NCBI GenBank assembly: GCA_945877175.1
Contig: CAMCRC010000015.1
Coordinates: 1 to 41,326, forward strand
Length of the DNA stretch: 41,326 bases
Reading direction: 5' to 3'
DNA from: Klebsiella pneumoniae
Lineage (GTDB): Bacteria; Pseudomonadota; Gammaproteobacteria; Pseudomonadales; Pseudohongiellaceae
Shown here: positions 30,539-41,326 of the stretch, one piece after another
Numbering within the stretch: position 1 is the stretch's first letter
Layout: every line of letters starts with the position of its first letter
Program-made: the position numbers and the translations under genes
Notes under the pieces: generated by a model
What the model was told of the DNA's origin: nothing
Databases searched by the model: none
Seen by the model: only the letters and a program-made list of their open reading frames with translations

Positions 30539-32230
<1,692 letters not shown>

Positions 32231-36452: not shown

Positions 36453-37118
36453 TTACTCGTCGCCAGAGAAGGCAGTCAACAGGTGTATCAGGCTCATGAA
36501 CAGGTTGTAGATTGACACAAACAGCGTGATTGTGGCGAGGATATAGTTACGCTCGCCCCCATTCACGATCTGGCCAGTCTGGTGCAGGATGATTGCACTG
36601 GAGAACAGCATGAAGCCGACTGATATGGCCAGTTGCAGCGCAGGAACCTTCACGAAGATACCCAGAATCATCGCCGCCAGCAGTACAAACATCCCTGCGG
36701 TGATAAAGCCGTTCAGGAAGGAAAAATCCTTGCGCGACACCAGGGCATAGCCAGACAGACCCAGGAATATAAAGGCTGTACCACCAAGGGCAGTCGTCAC
36801 GACCTGACTTCCGGCGCTGGTGGACATTAGACCACCAATCAATGGGCCAGTGCCGTAGCCAATGAAACCGGCAAAGGCAAACATGGTCAGAAGACCCCAG
36901 GCACTCTTTGCCAGAGCGTGAGTGGCGAACAGCAGCCCGTAAACGCCAATGATGTACATCCAGATGTTCATGGGGGCCGCATTGGTGCTCACGAACGCCA
37001 TCAATGCACTGAAGGCGAGCGTCATGCCCAGCAGCATGTAAGTATTCTTGAGAACCTTGTTGACTGCGAGAACCGATTCACCGGTATGCGCAACATCCAT
37101 TACATCAAACTGACTCAT
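36453..37118 (-). CDS. yccA: Bax inhibitor-1 / YccA family inner-membrane protein
   Basis: The 221-residue protein has seven predicted hydrophobic segments ('NTYMLLGMTLAFSALMAFVS', 'MYIIGVYGLLFATHAL', 'LLTMFAFAGFIGYGTGPLIG' and so on) and the BI-1 pattern. E. coli YccA is a substrate and modulator of the membrane protease FtsH; other BI-1 proteins are proposed ion or proton leaks. The ATG at 37118 follows GGAG; longer in-frame sequence is not hydrophobic or conserved. The position next to tus genes and a tRNA-Ser matches Pseudomonas. A terminator follows. Confidence 0.92.
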   Translation of the reverse strand: MSQFDVMDVAHTGESVLAVNKVLKNTYMLLGMTLAFSALMAFVSTNAAPMNIWMYIIGVYGLLFATHALAKSAWGLLTMFAFAGFIGYGTGPLIGGLMSTSAGSQVVTTALGGTAFIFLGLSGYALVSRKDFSFLNGFITAGMFVLLAAMILGIFVKVPALQLAISVGFMLFSSAIILHQTGQIVNGGERNYILATITLFVSIYNLFMSLIHLLTAFSGDE

Positions 37119-37328
37119 AGTGATCTCCGTTGTGTCTCTTTGCTGTTGAAGTCTGTAAACAAGACTGCAGGTGGCTCGCCAAAACTGCTCCTGCACGTCA
37201 GGGATATGAGGTCAAACCCTCGATATTTCAATATCCTTGGACCATCAGACCGGCGAGGGCCATGATACATTGCAAGTCTTCAAAAGCAATCCCTTCCGCG
37301 CCGAGCCTGCGCTGCAGCTATTCTGTGG

Positions 37329-37369: not shown

Positions 37370-37459
37370 GGAGGGGTGGCAGAGCGGTTGAATGCACCGG
37401 TCTTGAAAACCGGCGAGGGTGTGAGCCCTTCGAGAGTTCGAATCTCTCCCCCTCCGCCA
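37370..37459 (+). tRNA. tRNA-Ser(UGA)
   Basis: A 90-base tRNA with encoded CCA. The acceptor stem pairs GGAGGGG (37370-37376) with CCCCTCC (37449-37455). The anticodon loop is CTTGAAA within the stem ACCGGT-CTTGAAA-ACCGG, giving anticodon TGA (Ser, UCA codons). There is a long extra arm (GAGGGTGTGAGCCCTTC) and a T arm with GTTCGAATC. The long extra arm is the class II feature of serine tRNAs. It marks the border between conserved core genes on the left and accessory DNA on the right. Confidence 0.95.
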
Positions 37460-37971
37460 CTATACTAATTAAATCAATAACTTAGACAGAAGTTAAAGAT
37501 TTAACCATCTTAATACCTATCAAAAAATAAATGCACATAAAAACCCGCCTAAACTTGAGCAGGCTTGTCGGCTTTTGAGTGGTCAACAAATCCCGGACAT
37601 GGTTTTAGATAGTTTCTCAGCCTTTGCCGGTTGCAAGCTTTTGTTGTACGCGTGTGACCTGACCTAGTTGCAATAGTCCATCAGATATATCCCAAGATCC
37701 CCTTTTGCCTGCGCTTCATTTCTGTATCCCAGCGCCGGAACCCGCTCAGTGGCAAGCCCCCGATAATCTTGACACTCCCCCCTGACCATCAACGTACAGG
37801 GACAAGATTGGGGCAAGGCTAGGTGATAATGGTAATATTGACCTCCCGACGTCCCCCCGGCATTGTTGGCCATTGAACACCTCGTTGACGGTGGCAAGAT
37901 AAGCGCCTAAGTTGGTGTCCAGATTTATTGAACCACTTCATATCAAACCCGTTGCGCAGGAGAATAAAATT
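37460..37971. other. 512-base AT-rich gap after tRNA-Ser
   Basis: The first about 200 bases are clearly AT-richer than the rest of the window. The rest holds a 77-codon open frame on the minus strand (37897-37664, ending 'LMDYCN') without a recognisable family; I do not call it a gene. No transfer-RNA 3' repeat, integrase or clear terminator was seen. The end carries a GCAGGAG site for the next gene. Confidence 0.5.
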
Positions 37972-38502
37972 ATGGAAACCGCAAGGAAGTCCAGTAACAA
38001 CAAGATCTACCTGTATTCCGGAATTGCCTTCTTCGGGATCATCATCGCTGCCGCCGTTGCCTTCTATATCTACTCCATGATCTGCCCTTGCGAGCGTACG
38101 CCGGGAGGAATTCTGTTCGGCGAACGCATCAATGAGCCAGTAAGCGATTGGAGCCATGTAAACGAAGTGGAAAACTGTGAGCTGCAAATTGCTGCTGGAA
38201 TTCGTCCTCATTCATTGACGCTGAACTGCTGGGCGACCCCGGAAGGAGTACTTTTCGTAGGATGCATGTCCTGTGACAACAAGTATTGGGGGTATCAGGT
38301 TGGACCGAATGAAAAAGGATACATTCGAGTAGCCGGCCGCGTTTATCCGGTCACTGTCAATCGCATCGAAGATCCTGCTGAAATGGACAATATTTGGCTA
38401 TCCCGTTTCTACAAGCTGGGCTTACTCAGTACGGAGCCGGTTAATGAAGAGCCAAGAGCCGAAGGCTGGTGGGCATTCAGCGTTGTCTCCCGTCCATCCT
38501 GA
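37972..38502 (+). CDS. Membrane-anchored protein of unknown function
   Basis: The 176-residue protein has one N-terminal membrane segment at about residues 13-34 ('IYLYSGIAFFGIIIAAAVAF'). After it comes a soluble domain of about 140 residues with 'GGILFGERINEPVSDWSHV', 'PHSLTLNCWATPEGVLFVG', 'DNKYWGYQVGPNEKGYIRVAGRVYPV' and 'RIEDPAEMDNIWLSRF', ending 'GWWAFSVVSRPS'. The order of motifs (a DWS element, a strand ending in a 'lyvgC.sC..K.W' element, then 'R..g.vYpv...ri.dpae') recalls conserved hypothetical split-barrel-like proteins, possibly of flavin-binding type, but I cannot name a family. Cysteines in 'MICPCER' and 'GCMSCDNK' could bind metal or form disulfides outside the membrane. The ATG has a GCAGGAG site. 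It stands alone in the accessory strip. Confidence 0.7.
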   Translation: METARKSSNNKIYLYSGIAFFGIIIAAAVAFYIYSMICPCERTPGGILFGERINEPVSDWSHVNEVENCELQIAAGIRPHSLTLNCWATPEGVLFVGCMSCDNKYWGYQVGPNEKGYIRVAGRVYPVTVNRIEDPAEMDNIWLSRFYKLGLLSTEPVNEEPRAEGWWAFSVVSRPS

Positions 38503-38968
38503 CAGCGTGATTACTATAACCAAAAAAAGAGGTACAGAAACTCGACCAATTCTTGAACGAAGCAGGATTCATCCAGCGACAAGATGGAAGGTGCTGTATG
38601 GTGCCGGGCTGGAAAGCGGCTTTATTACAATTGTAAAAAGTGTTTTGGCGCTTATTCGGCCAACGCATTCCTCCCGTTGTTCAAGCGATCACGTATTGAG
38701 GAGTCACTTTGACCTTGTACGCCTGGGAATGTTCTTGAAGCGTGTTCCTGGACAGCCTTGCCGACGCCAAGCGTGATGCTGGTTTAAAACGTGAGGAAAA
38801 ACAAGGACTTTCGAGGCTATTACTTCGTATTGAAACTTGGGTCGGTATTGGGTCGGTCGAAGGGGTCAGCGCGGGGAGTGCGTCGGCGAGGCCCCAACAA
38901 AAGCAAGGCCTTATGGGAAGTGCGCAAGCTTGGAGCAACGGACAGAAGATCCGAGCAACCCCTCCCGG
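38503..38968. other. 466-base gap with possible gene remnants
   Basis: No supported gene. A 38-codon open stretch in the plus strand (38523-38636) reads like a coding fragment ('DQFLNEAGFIQRQDG') but has no start and no family match I recognise. Base composition changes sharply near 38830, where the sequence becomes very GC-rich toward the next gene, suggesting a junction. Confidence 0.4.
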
Positions 38969-39460
38969 TCAGCCCGGGGCGGCCGCCTTGCGGGCCTTCT
39001 CCGTCAGGACATAGTGGCGCGACTTGCCCTCCATCCTCTGAACCAGCCCTTGGTCCATCAGGGCCGCCAAAAGGAACCCCGCCGTATTCACGCTCTTCCC
39101 CCGGAACAGTCCCCGCAGAGTGATCGAGGTGAACCGGTCCGAGGCGTTGCAGGCGGCGAATATCCGGCTCCACGCCACCCACTCCTGAGAGAAGAACCCT
39201 CCGGCATTGTTGGCCACTATGCGAAAGTAGGTCTCCTTGGCTTCATCACTGCCGATCTCGTAGTCCAGGACCCCCGTGTCGGACAGGCTGGGGCAGAAGC
39301 CCTTCCGGAGGACCTTTACGGCGATAGGGGCGGCTTCGGGGGTCTTGGCGGGGTTGACTGAGGGGGTCGGCCGGGCTTTGGCGGCGGGGGGCGTCGGGGA
39401 GGAGTTGGCGGGGGTGGCTTTCGCGGGCTTGGATCGGGATGGGGCGGCTTTCGAGGTCAT
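38969..39460 (-). CDS. Winged-helix-like protein with Ala/Pro/Lys-rich N-terminal tail
   Basis: The 163-residue protein has a low-complexity tail (residues 1-45, alternating Ala, Pro, Lys and Ser, as in DNA- or RNA-binding tails). A compact helical domain follows (about 60-157), with 'SDEAKETYFRIVANNAGGFFS', 'TSITLRGLFRGKSVNTAGFLLAALMDQGLVQ' and 'EGKSRHYVLTEKAR' pieces. The last two resemble the recognition helix and wing of MarR- or phage-type winged helices, so DNA binding is likely. The ATG at 39460 has a strong AGGAG site eight bases upstream. An in-frame start at 39574 is rejected. GC content is visibly higher than in neighbours, consistent with recent transfer. Target and role are unknown. 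Confidence 0.7.
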   Translation of the reverse strand: MTSKAAPSRSKPAKATPANSSPTPPAAKARPTPSVNPAKTPEAAPIAVKVLRKGFCPSLSDTGVLDYEIGSDEAKETYFRIVANNAGGFFSQEWVAWSRIFAACNASDRFTSITLRGLFRGKSVNTAGFLLAALMDQGLVQRMEGKSRHYVLTEKARKAAAPG

Positions 39461-39610
39461 GGGTGATTCTCCTGAATTGGATTGAGGGGGACACTTGAGG
39501 TAAGCACCCGAAACCGATATGGTCCGGGGGGTGCGGGGGTTATTCATATAAGATGGTGAAAAAGCCGCAAACATAAAAACAGGGATTCAACGACAAGGAC
39601 GCAAGCCGCT

Positions 39611-39838
39611 ATGCCTATACCCGATTTTCAGACCGTCATGCGTCCCGTCCTTGAGGTTGTCAGTGATGGTGTCCCCCATGCGCTGTCGCAAGTGCGCGAG
39701 GACGTTGCCAACAGCTTCGGGCTGACTGAAGACGAGCGTCGCGAACGCATCACCTCCGGCACCCAAACCACCATCAACTCACACTGGGCAACTCAGAGCA
39801 GAGTTGAAGAAAATGGGTCGGCCTATCGGCCCCTATGA
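39611..39838 (+). pseudogene. Remnant of Mrr-type restriction protein (N-terminal domain only)
   Basis: The 75-codon frame begins 'MPIPDFQTVMRPVLEVVSDG' and continues 'VREDVANSFGLTEDERRERITSG'. This is the N-terminal winged-helix domain of Mrr-like type IV restriction enzymes, which cut modified DNA. Similarity ends near 39780, and the frame then runs into the VapC remnant in a different frame. The catalytic PD-(D/E)xK domain is missing, so it cannot cut DNA. An AAGGA site precedes the ATG, so a short peptide might still be made. Confidence 0.75.
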
Positions 39839-39956
39839 CGAAATGATCGCTGGGCACGCTCGTTCGCAAGGCCTGGTGGTTGTCACCAACAATATCAAGC
39901 AGTTCGAGAATGCACCGGGTATTCGGCTGGAGAACTGGCACAACACCAAAAGCTAA
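39786..39956 (+). pseudogene. Remnant of VapC-type PIN-domain toxin (C-terminal part)
   Basis: In the second plus-strand frame 57 codons (39786-39956) encode 'AELKKMGRPIGPYDEMIAGH', 'ARSQGLVVVTNN' and 'FENAPGIRLENW', which is the C-terminal third of VapC ribonuclease toxins, including the acidic residue of 'GPYDEMIAGHA' and the 'VTNN' strand. The N-terminal part with the first catalytic aspartate and any VapB antitoxin are absent. An internal ATG at 39813 could start a 47-residue peptide. The fragment overlaps the end of the Mrr remnant, so the two pieces appear joined by a deletion. Confidence 0.8.
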
Positions 39957-39980
39957 TTGGCGCACGGCACCAAAAGCTAA
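39944..39980 (+). repeat. Short direct repeat at the end of the VapC remnant
   Basis: CACCAAAAGCTAA occurs at 39944-39956 (including the vapC stop codon) and again at 39968-39980. A partial duplication at the edge of a decayed gene is the simplest reading. Confidence 0.6.
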
Positions 39981-40062
39981 AAGCGGTACGACGCGGGGGC
40001 ATTCAGGAACATTGGCCGTGCAGACGGCGGTGACGGGGATTGAGTATGTTTGAGGTGCGCGC

Positions 40063-40989
40063 ATGAGGCGTTTCCAATGTAATGAAAAAGTATCCGTGCA
40101 GCGCACTCGGTATCGATTCGCTGTCCATATCCTGACTGTGATCGTACTGTCTGTCAGCCCGATGACGCTCGTTGCCCAGGAAGCAGAATCGAATGACACG
40201 TCTTTCGAACTCGACGTGATGACATTCAATATTCGAACTTCGGATGGACAGGACGGCGATAACATTTGGCCGCTGCGCAAAGAGCTTGTGGTCGAGACCA
40301 TGCGAGCCTTCGACCCTGACGTCCTCGGTCTCCAGGAGGCTCTCACGGTGCAGATTGACTTTCTTCAGTCGGAAATGCCCGAGTACCGATGGTTGGGCGT
40401 CGACCGCGGTCTGAACGGAGGCGTTGGGCTGAGCGAGGCGACTCCGATCTTCTACAAGCACGAGGTGCTGGTGCCACTAGAATCTGGCACCTTCTGGCTC
40501 GCGGACGATCCGAATCCTCCTGCGCAACCCGGTCGGGGCGCCCGCATAGTCACCTGGGCTCGCTTCCACCATCTCGAGACTCGCCGACAGTTCTACGTCT
40601 ACAACACGCATTTCACGATACGTGGCGGCCCTCGTCAGATCCAGGCCGCAGAACAGATCAATGCGCACATCTCGCAACATCCTCCCGAGAGCGTGGTAGT
40701 GGTGATGGGTGACTTCAACGCCATAGCAGAAACAAGCGAGACGTGGCACGCCGCGACGCGCGATGGCCTCAGGGATGCCTGGCAAGTTGCAGAAAAGCGG
40801 GAGGGACCGCCACTGACGTCGAACGGTTTTGGCCCACCGCCGCAGGGGCGCGAGGGCCGTATTGACTGGATACTGGTCGGTGGGCTCATCGCAGTGGAGC
40901 GAGCCGTCACGGTGCTGCACAGCGCGGACGGGCGATGGCCGTCGGACCATTATCCCGTGGCAGCGGAGCTGGTCATACCGTCTCGGTAG
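40063..40989 (+). CDS. Exported endonuclease/exonuclease/phosphatase (EEP) family hydrolase
   Basis: The 308-residue protein has a likely signal peptide with a hydrophobic core at about residues 20-37 and possible cleavage near 'LVA' at 38. The EEP catalytic set follows: N56 in 'MTFNIRT', E92 in 'LGLQEAL', H183 in 'YNTHFTIRGG', D217 and N219 in 'MGDFNA', D268 in 'GRIDWIL', and 'SDHYPV' with D295-H296. Such enzymes cut phosphodiesters in DNA, phosphoinositides, sphingomyelin or similar; this short exported form resembles bacterial proteins of unproven substrate. It is complete and seems functional, unlike its left neighbours. No partner gene is visible. Confidence 0.88.
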   Translation: MRRFQCNEKVSVQRTRYRFAVHILTVIVLSVSPMTLVAQEAESNDTSFELDVMTFNIRTSDGQDGDNIWPLRKELVVETMRAFDPDVLGLQEALTVQIDFLQSEMPEYRWLGVDRGLNGGVGLSEATPIFYKHEVLVPLESGTFWLADDPNPPAQPGRGARIVTWARFHHLETRRQFYVYNTHFTIRGGPRQIQAAEQINAHISQHPPESVVVVMGDFNAIAETSETWHAATRDGLRDAWQVAEKREGPPLTSNGFGPPPQGREGRIDWILVGGLIAVERAVTVLHSADGRWPSDHYPVAAELVIPSR

Positions 40990-41078
40990 GCTAACGACAA
41001 ATCCCGCACAAGGCGCTACGAAGCCGGCTGCCAACTGCTTGAATCCGAAGGATTTTTCGAGAAACTTCTGAAGAAATC

Positions 41079-41127
41079 TGGTGGGCCCACCTGGACTTGA
41101 ACCAGGGACCAACGGATTATGAGTCCT
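41079..41127 (-). other. 3' fragment of a CAU-anticodon tRNA (probable attachment-site scar)
   Basis: On the minus strand the sequence from about 41127 to 41079 contains GGACTCATAATCC (anticodon loop CTCATAA, anticodon CAT), a perfect T arm (CCTGG-TTCAAGT-CCAGG), the 3' acceptor strand TGGGCCC, a discriminator A and CCA. The 5' half (D arm, 5' acceptor strand) does not match: the seven bases expected to pair with TGGGCCC are absent, and the outer anticodon stem is mispaired. Integrases often recombine in exactly this 3' part of tRNA-Met/tRNA-Ile2 genes, leaving such a copy at one end of the element. By orientation, the inserted element would lie to the right of 41127. Confidence 0.75.
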
Positions 41128-41326
41128 ACGCTAACTAATTCTCCCAACTCGCAACAACTGCCTGCTATAGTTAAGTAATTGAATAATAGTACTTTATCTT
41201 CGGTGGTCAATGGCCATTAGTTGTATCGAGTTGGTGGGCAGTGTCCCGCGAGTGTCCCATGGGCGGGTAGAGCGGTCTCTGGCAGCCTTGCGGCTAGCTT
41301 TTGATCTTCAATTCCTCCAAAACTCC
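41128..41326. other. Right-edge sequence beyond the tRNA fragment
   Basis: About 200 bases without a supported gene. On the minus strand a frame is open from the window edge and ends 'EELKIKS' before a TAG at about 41296; it could be the tail of a gene outside the window, such as one belonging to the inferred element. An AT-rich stretch sits beside the tRNA fragment. Confidence 0.35.

Follow-up and report, generated by a model that had tools for sequence, protein, structure and literature searches.

A displaced 3′ end of a CAU tRNA gene at the end of a gammaproteobacterial contig, probably a boundary within a layered island

Origin of the Locus

The window analysed in the present study is the entire contig C15 (41,326 bp) of a gammaproteobacterial genome of 2.64 Mb in 126 contigs. 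Near its right end lies a sequence resembling the 3′ part of a CAU tRNA gene, and the question that this locus raises is how a partial tRNA gene came to stand there: whether it is a scar left by an integrated mobile element and, if so, what kind of DNA lies on either side of it. As the window is the whole contig, the element is cut off 200 bp past the fragment.

The tRNA Fragment and Its Intact Counterpart

The features concerned are the following:
41079–41126, minus strand: attachment-site repeat, the displaced 3′ portion of a CAU tRNA gene, probably tRNA-Ile2, 48/48 identical to the intact gene G000:C26
41117–41123, minus strand: anticodon loop CTCATAA, presumed crossover region; the ten fragments compared start matching at tRNA position 25–33

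The fragment reads from 41126 to 41079 and comprises 48 bases, from the anticodon stem to CCA. The genome possesses an intact CAU tRNA gene at C26:31201–31277 (anticodon CAT, called tRNA-Met by ARAGORN), and the fragment matches its part at 31230–31277 with 100% identity (E 5.9e-19). Compared position by position, the two agree at 48 of 48 bases from tRNA position 30 to CCA and at 8 of 29 upstream. They are the only two matches to the tRNA 3′ sequence in the bin, and after base shuffling of the 26 scanned sequences the profile of the tRNA 3′ end gave no match at E ≤ 1. The preliminary description, which had claimed a CAU tRNA 3′ fragment of about 49 bases with an unrelated 5′ half, is thus borne out, the exact copy being 48 bases long. 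ARAGORN called no tRNA at 41 kb of the window, where the sole tRNA is the tRNA-Ser at 37370–37459, and Rfam at the gathering threshold yielded only this tRNA-Ser and nothing at the fragment; neither program finds an intact CAU tRNA at this place.

The same description had left the choice between tRNA-Met and tRNA-Ile2 open. The CAU identity stands, and tRNA-Ile2 is the likelier of the two: in E. coli the C26 target tRNA is matched best (85.7%) by a CAT-anticodon tRNA that RefSeq annotates as tRNA-Ile, so the target is probably tRNA-Ile2 rather than elongator tRNA-Met, a candidate that this comparison disfavours. That E. coli tRNA-Ile (CAT) is also called tRNA-Met by ARAGORN. Both tRNAs possess C-G pairs at 4-69 and 5-68, which we take to be features of tRNA-Ile2. 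Another CAU tRNA called by ARAGORN on C26 (6434–6510) presumably resembles elongator tRNA-Met more; its top E. coli match is a GAT tRNA-Ile (81.8%), so the E. coli comparison leaves it without a class.

Fragments of the Same tRNA in Related Genomes

Ten fragments from seven genomes (the window, G007, G012, G013 and G058 with one each, G005 with two and G011 with three) were compared with the intact tRNA of their own genome. They cover every strong fragment match but those of G116 and G119, 10 of 12 in all. From position 30 to CCA the agreement is 45–48 of 48 bases, and upstream of position 30 it falls to 5–15 of 29. The match begins at tRNA position 30–33 in eight fragments and at position 25 in the remaining two (G011b and G013), which are orthologous. 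T-arm variants, one kind in G005 and another in G007, G012 and G058, are common to the fragment and the intact gene of each genome. Judged by sequence comparison, these breakpoints and shared T-arm variants form the pattern that integration at the anticodon loop would give. A PF00589 (tyrosine integrase) gene lies between the intact tRNA and the fragment in 4 of the 13 relatives searched for integrases (G005, G007, G012 and G058).

Several further observations were made at these sites. The island of G012 (L158, L159, L038) spans 31 kb and contains type I restriction-modification genes, with an Hsp70-like gene and a TPR gene close to the fragment; C26 has a J-domain gene past its tRNA. In the island of G007, copper-resistance genes (multicopper oxidase, CopB; L157 2738–5399) lie 0.6 kb past the tRNA. 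At least 16 among the 150 tRNA matches listed begin no more than 130 bp from the first base of a contig (hand count). This is what one would expect if assemblies are broken by repeats and strain variants, and the CAU tRNA hotspot seems to break them.

The Element to the Right of the Fragment

The DNA between the fragment and the contig end contains:
41127–41326, minus strand: right-hand terminus of an integrated element, truncated where the contig stops; 75% identity to G116:C211:91-279
41240–41258, minus strand: two direct repeats GGGACACT, 11 bp apart, putative integrase arm sites

The homologue in G116 abuts a fragment of the same CAU tRNA, and its downstream flank differs from that of the window. 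Weaker copies were found in G119, G155, G097 and a second contig of G116 (C98); with 41127–41326 as the query, 9 of the 137 family genomes match, the own genome included, mostly weakly. The proposal that an element lies to the right of the fragment therefore holds, as the orientation agrees, the start falls within the anticodon loop or stem (41117–41126) and the end recurs in G116. The window ends inside an integrated element.

The GGGACACT copies stand 124 and 113 bp ahead of the fragment both in the window and in G116. G119 has the pair at the same places, the second copy being imperfect. In viral contig L235, copies are found 125 and 114 bp ahead of another tRNA 3′ fragment, which by eye has a GTT anticodon and belongs to tRNA-Asn. 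We infer that the pair represents integrase arm sites. The search of viral contigs with the pattern TGGGACACTNNTGGGACACT gave 16 matches, L235 among them with the same spacing ahead of the tRNA 3′ fragment, and TGGGACACTCATGGGACACT matched none; GGGACACTCGCGGGACACT matched two viral contigs, which were judged unrelated from their ORF lists. In the region 7339–7529 of L235, paired TGGGACACT repeats stand 114 bp ahead of the tRNA 3′ fragment, and this fragment adjoins a gene that by eye resembles a large serine recombinase. Among 361 records of the phage collection, the best 20 match the tRNA part alone. Neither PHROG nor Pfam gave a match to the 33-aa ORF tail at the edge of the G116 contig, and the best hits in plasmids and phages reach an E of about 6.

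The 200 bp between the fragment and the contig end contain no integrase. The genome has seven PF00589 matches, all on other contigs; when they were compared with the integrases of relatives, those of C66 and C89 showed 30–36% identity with the integrases from the islands of G005, G011 and G012. Neither the paired GGGACAC repeat nor a CAU tRNA was found in C66, C89, C64 and C73 (searched whole) or in one end each of C1 and C8, and the attempt to name the integrase of the element among the seven matches was given up, as none is tied to the fragment site. By eye, C66 appears to start in the end of an IS3-type transposase, and C64 (L009 2880–3300) seems to carry several tRNA 3′ ends in tandem ahead of an integrase.

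The Far End of the Element

The preliminary description had predicted that the element ends, on its far side, at an intact CAU tRNA gene, to be found by extending the contig to the right. The extension failed: no contig of the bin overlaps the end of C15, and no overlapping partner was found for the last 200 bp of C15 or the last 150 bp of C26. The prediction itself stands in part, as an intact gene with an identical 3′ end exists on C26, but C26 and C15 carry different repeats, and neither flank is linked with the CAU tRNA in relatives. A tandem array, a rearrangement, entry of the element into a stray fragment or a chimeric contig may each account for this. The C26 tRNA stands 897 bp from the contig end, and the J-domain gene runs off that end. 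The intact tRNA and the C15 fragment are thus both at contig ends, and their orientation fits a single element.

The repeat after the C26 tRNA is CTTACACAG, as against GGGACACT in the window, while the elements of G007 and G058 have CTTACAC-type repeats at both ends. A shuffle test of the words shared by the two ends, a weak test, gave P of 0.004 for G007, 0.118 for G058, 0.737 for G005 and 0.022 for G012. For the C26 and window ends, the same weak test gave 0.153, with four words in common, none of them the CTTACAC or GGGACAC repeats. In the relatives compared, the genes found upstream of the C26 tRNA do not adjoin the CAU tRNA. A search of the remaining 136 of 137 family genomes gave no relative of the C26 J-domain protein at E ≤ 1e-20; in viral contigs it has one short 43% match, and among its plasmid matches none reaches 80% coverage.

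The EEP Unit and the DNA to the Left

To the left of the fragment the window contains:
38969–39574, minus strand: 201-aa ORF with no Pfam or NCBIfam match
39611–39838, plus strand: truncated remnant of an Mrr N-terminal domain (Pfam PF14338, E 2.6e-12)
40063–40989, plus strand: endonuclease/exonuclease/phosphatase-family gene (EEP; PF03372, E 7e-24), cargo of units at the CAU tRNA in relatives
40990–41078, minus strand: possibly the worn left end of an EEP unit (weak similarity, z at most 3.9)

A VapC-like tail supposed at about 39802–39954 was rejected, having no Pfam match. DNA similar to the 201-aa ORF was located close to the CAU tRNA, or to fragments of it, in G005, G011, G013, G016 and G027. 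The EEP gene was found at 88–93% identity in 7 of 56 relatives, with a 34% match in an eighth, G025, and all seven have a CAU tRNA or a fragment of it within 13 kb of EEP. At the level of loci, 9 of the 12 with EEP at 87% identity or more (L077–L088, several of which repeat the G genomes) match the tRNA 3′ profile; the other three are L084, L085 and L087, and L085 is apparently G016, where the tRNA lies beyond the flank compared. G016 and G027 belong to another genus; their EEP genes share 88 and 90% identity with that of the window, against 67% for Bax1-I in both, so EEP has probably been moved horizontally.

Such a unit can be examined by comparing two relatives. In G013 the order is CAU tRNA, MqsA antitoxin unit, fragment; in G011, where the locus spans two contigs overlapping by exactly 141 bp at their ends, it is tRNA, EEP, fragment, MqsA unit, fragment. 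The upstream flanks of G011 and G013 are 89% identical over 4.4 kb, and the MqsA units 97–98%. The search for an empty site, which the preliminary description had recommended for the element to the right of 41127, yielded none for that element in the relatives; it did yield one for the EEP unit, empty in G013 and filled in G011. This pair indicates that the EEP unit is a discrete insert, in G011 of 2433 bp (2.4 kb) at the anticodon loop of the CAU tRNA, with a DsrE-like ORF besides EEP. The EEP gene of G005 is bracketed by two fragments that stand 1703 bp apart. No PF00589 gene was found within the EEP units of G005 and G011, which thus have att repeats on both sides and no PF00589 gene, as CIME-like units do. 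The window copy has one fragment only and at best a worn end.

The MqsA unit (L046 1110–2189; L160 14182–15442) is 1.0–1.2 kb long, with CAU tRNA 3′ ends on both sides; it has neither the left end shared by other units nor an integrase match.

The view of the left flank as ordinary host DNA was abandoned because of the breaks of similarity at the tRNA-Ser (see below), the likenesses of the 201-aa ORF and the G011/G013 pair. On these comparisons, the DNA to the left of the fragment is to be read as island DNA too.

Ends Shared by EEP Units and Integrase Islands

The first 110 bp past CCA are alike at nine sites: the integrase islands of G005 and G011, both EEP units and five more. The z values against base shuffles range from about 8 to 58, the EEP unit of G011 being the furthest from that of G005 (z about 8). 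The pattern ACGGACTA[TC] lies 81–84 bp past CCA at 10 of 26 tRNA 3′ ends, in the exact form ACGGACTATGCATCCGT at eight of these ten; the ten include the orthologous G011b and G013, and the 26 include L181 (G097), by sequence another CAU tRNA. In 712,088 bases, both strands counted, the pattern occurs 20 times. It is absent from 40990–41078 of the window. Sequences identical or close to ACGGACTATGCATCCGT resemble the anticodon-arm core of the tRNA and were noted in L036, L039, L040, L045, L046, L156, L160, L161 and L164.

The right ends of the EEP units of G005 and G011 are strongly alike (z 58–64) and resemble those of the integrase islands of G005, G011 and G012 more weakly (z 5–27). The G005 and G011 islands have the word GGTTCGG three times in their right ends; in those of the EEP units it occurs twice and once, and in G012 once. 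It does not occur in the right ends of G007, G058, the MqsA unit and the window. The shared left end is likewise absent from the CTTACAC-type elements, the MqsA unit, C26 and G012, and the right end of the window shows no likeness to the right ends of EEP units or integrase islands. Since the window copy has at best a worn left end, its membership of this family rests mainly on EEP.

The similarity of the ends of EEP units and integrase islands is only suggestive as a sign of mobilisation. We tentatively propose, as a reading that falls somewhat short of an even chance, that EEP cassettes of 1.7–2.4 kb, a family in Pseudohongiella-like bacteria having no integrase of its own, may insert exactly at the anticodon loop of the CAU tRNA, with the integrase of larger islands at that tRNA acting in trans to move them. 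Cassettes and islands would share a left end of about 105 bp, including the near-copy of the anticodon-arm core 81–84 bp past CCA, and similar right ends with GGTTCGG words.

The tRNA-Ser/Bax1-I Locus

The left flank contains two features:
36453–37196, minus strand: Bax1-I family gene (Pfam PF01027), anchor of the left flank
37370–37459, plus strand: tRNA-Ser(UGA), called by ARAGORN; the similarity of relatives stops at its 3′ end or within 13 bases of it

The similarity of the window to the loci of ten relatives ends at 37459–37472, that is, at the 3′ end of the tRNA-Ser(UGA), and because of these ten breaks the tRNA-Ser is probably a second insertion hotspot. Of 22 relatives, 20 possess Bax1-I (E ≤ 1e-40). 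Where the genome is a single contig (G062, G092 and G099) it lies more than 1 Mb from the best CAU tRNA match, and in G001, G005, G012, G016, G027 and G058 the two are on separate contigs. This indicates that the fragment stands outside the usual place of that tRNA, unless a rearrangement or a chimera is involved. An inversion was considered as the source of the link with the tRNA-Ser; the orientations of the CAU tRNA and Bax1-I loci vary among G062, G092 and G099.

Alternative Explanations

Taken together, the evidence makes it very probable that the 48 bp stem from a CAU tRNA gene whose 3′ end was displaced when an element integrated site-specifically, with an older EEP unit on the left, in a layered island. 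A decayed tRNA gene or a chance likeness, with no element at all, is hardly credible: the bases ahead of the fragment look slightly D-arm-like by eye, but 8 of 29 upstream positions agree as against 48 of 48 downstream, and these bases are conserved with the G116 element end, whose junction contradicts decay. The other alternatives concern the place of the scar and the far end of the element. It is rather unlikely that the element entered a fragment that had already been displaced within a tRNA-Ser island, its far end then being another fragment. This explanation would suit a left flank that is a tRNA-Ser locus whose likeness to relatives stops at the 3′ end of tRNA-Ser, the retention of the entire anticodon-to-CCA region by the fragments and the multi-fragment arrays of G005 and G011; yet the bin has no further fragment besides the intact gene, and the CAU tRNA fragment has no match in any of the ten relatives' tRNA-Ser loci.

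A single element joining the C26 tRNA to the window, with a rearrangement that brought the tRNA-Ser locus alongside, seems distinctly unlikely. The 48 identical bases, the location of both at contig ends, the fitting orientation, the J-domain gene running off the C26 end and the presence of just two such tRNA matches in the bin are in its favour, but the ends CTTACACAG and GGGACACT are unlike where G007 and G058 have repeats of one type at both ends (a contrast with weak statistics), and in relatives the flanks of neither contig go with the CAU tRNA. Quite improbable, finally, is an assembly chimera in which about 37460–41326 comes from a CAU tRNA island and was misjoined to a tRNA-Ser contig. 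The assembly in 126 contigs would agree with it, as would the finding that in relatives EEP and the 201-aa ORF lie close to the CAU tRNA or to fragments of it; against it, the DNA past the tRNA-Ser in the ten loci differs from the window, which indicates that variable content is normal there.

Proposed Sequence of Events

For the displaced-end reading, the following course may be proposed. A tyrosine integrase would recombine attP with the tRNA gene at the anticodon loop, the element's own 3′ part would restore the gene, and the old 3′ end would be displaced. The element would have come from the right, pushing the former 3′ end and the attached EEP unit off the 5′ half, and repeated integrations would stack units downstream of the tRNA gene. 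The window would represent one layer boundary, with a GGGACACT-type element on the right and an older, worn EEP unit on the left. In the relatives, several elements have accumulated at the CAU tRNA and make the locus a layered island; in the own genome, the layer would lie at the tRNA-Ser/Bax1-I locus or have been moved there. We infer the involvement of a tyrosine integrase, the order of events and the content past the contig end.

Comparison with Known Systems

The scar belongs to ordinary tRNA-island biology, with tandem accretion and CIME-like units, and insertion scars of this kind are already known. Islander records two classes of sites, and 2083 of its 3919 islands have anticodon-centred ones (PMC4383910). 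There, as here, an intact tDNA and a displaced 3′ fragment mark an island, and tandem arrays are known; the window differs in showing one element end only, with no integrase in its 200 bp. The Islander filter employs 2 kb and an integrase match, whereas the smallest units of the relatives are shorter and the EEP and MqsA units have no integrase match (PMC4383910).

In Dehalococcoides, tandem islands at ssrA are bounded by repeats of the target 3′ end, and 15 islands without an integration module may be cis-mobilizable elements (PMC3146451). Both the tandem islands marked by target 3′-end repeats and the integrase-less units are paralleled here, but that system involves tmRNA, a 20-bp repeat and a serine recombinase, as opposed to a CAU tRNA, 45–48 bases and tyrosine integrases in the relatives (PMC3146451). 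CIMEs, the cis-mobilizable elements treated in an IME review, have lost the integrase and kept the att sites, and tandem accretion takes place when a new element enters an att site (PMC5704250). The integrase-less units with att repeats in tandem are similar to them, although the EEP and MqsA units measure only 1.0–2.4 kb. Work on Methylophilaceae reports an additive island at tRNA-Lys with recurring tRNA ends, and a tycheposon, a variable island that starts from tRNA-Met(cat) and holds a tyrosine recombinase (PMC10872708). The recurring tRNA ends and a CAT tRNA at the start of a variable island are common to both cases (PMC10872708).

Significance

It follows that a gammaproteobacterial contig breaks off within a mobile element, and that both sides of the scar are, by the comparisons made, island DNA. 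The G013/G011 pair places the insertion point within a few bases. The EEP units, whose ends resemble those of integrase islands, make a small and testable example of cassettes that have no integrase and apparently dock at a tRNA gene. If the tentative proposal of mobilisation in trans is true, the tRNA gene would be an assembly point for gene cassettes, a docking site somewhat like that of an integron.
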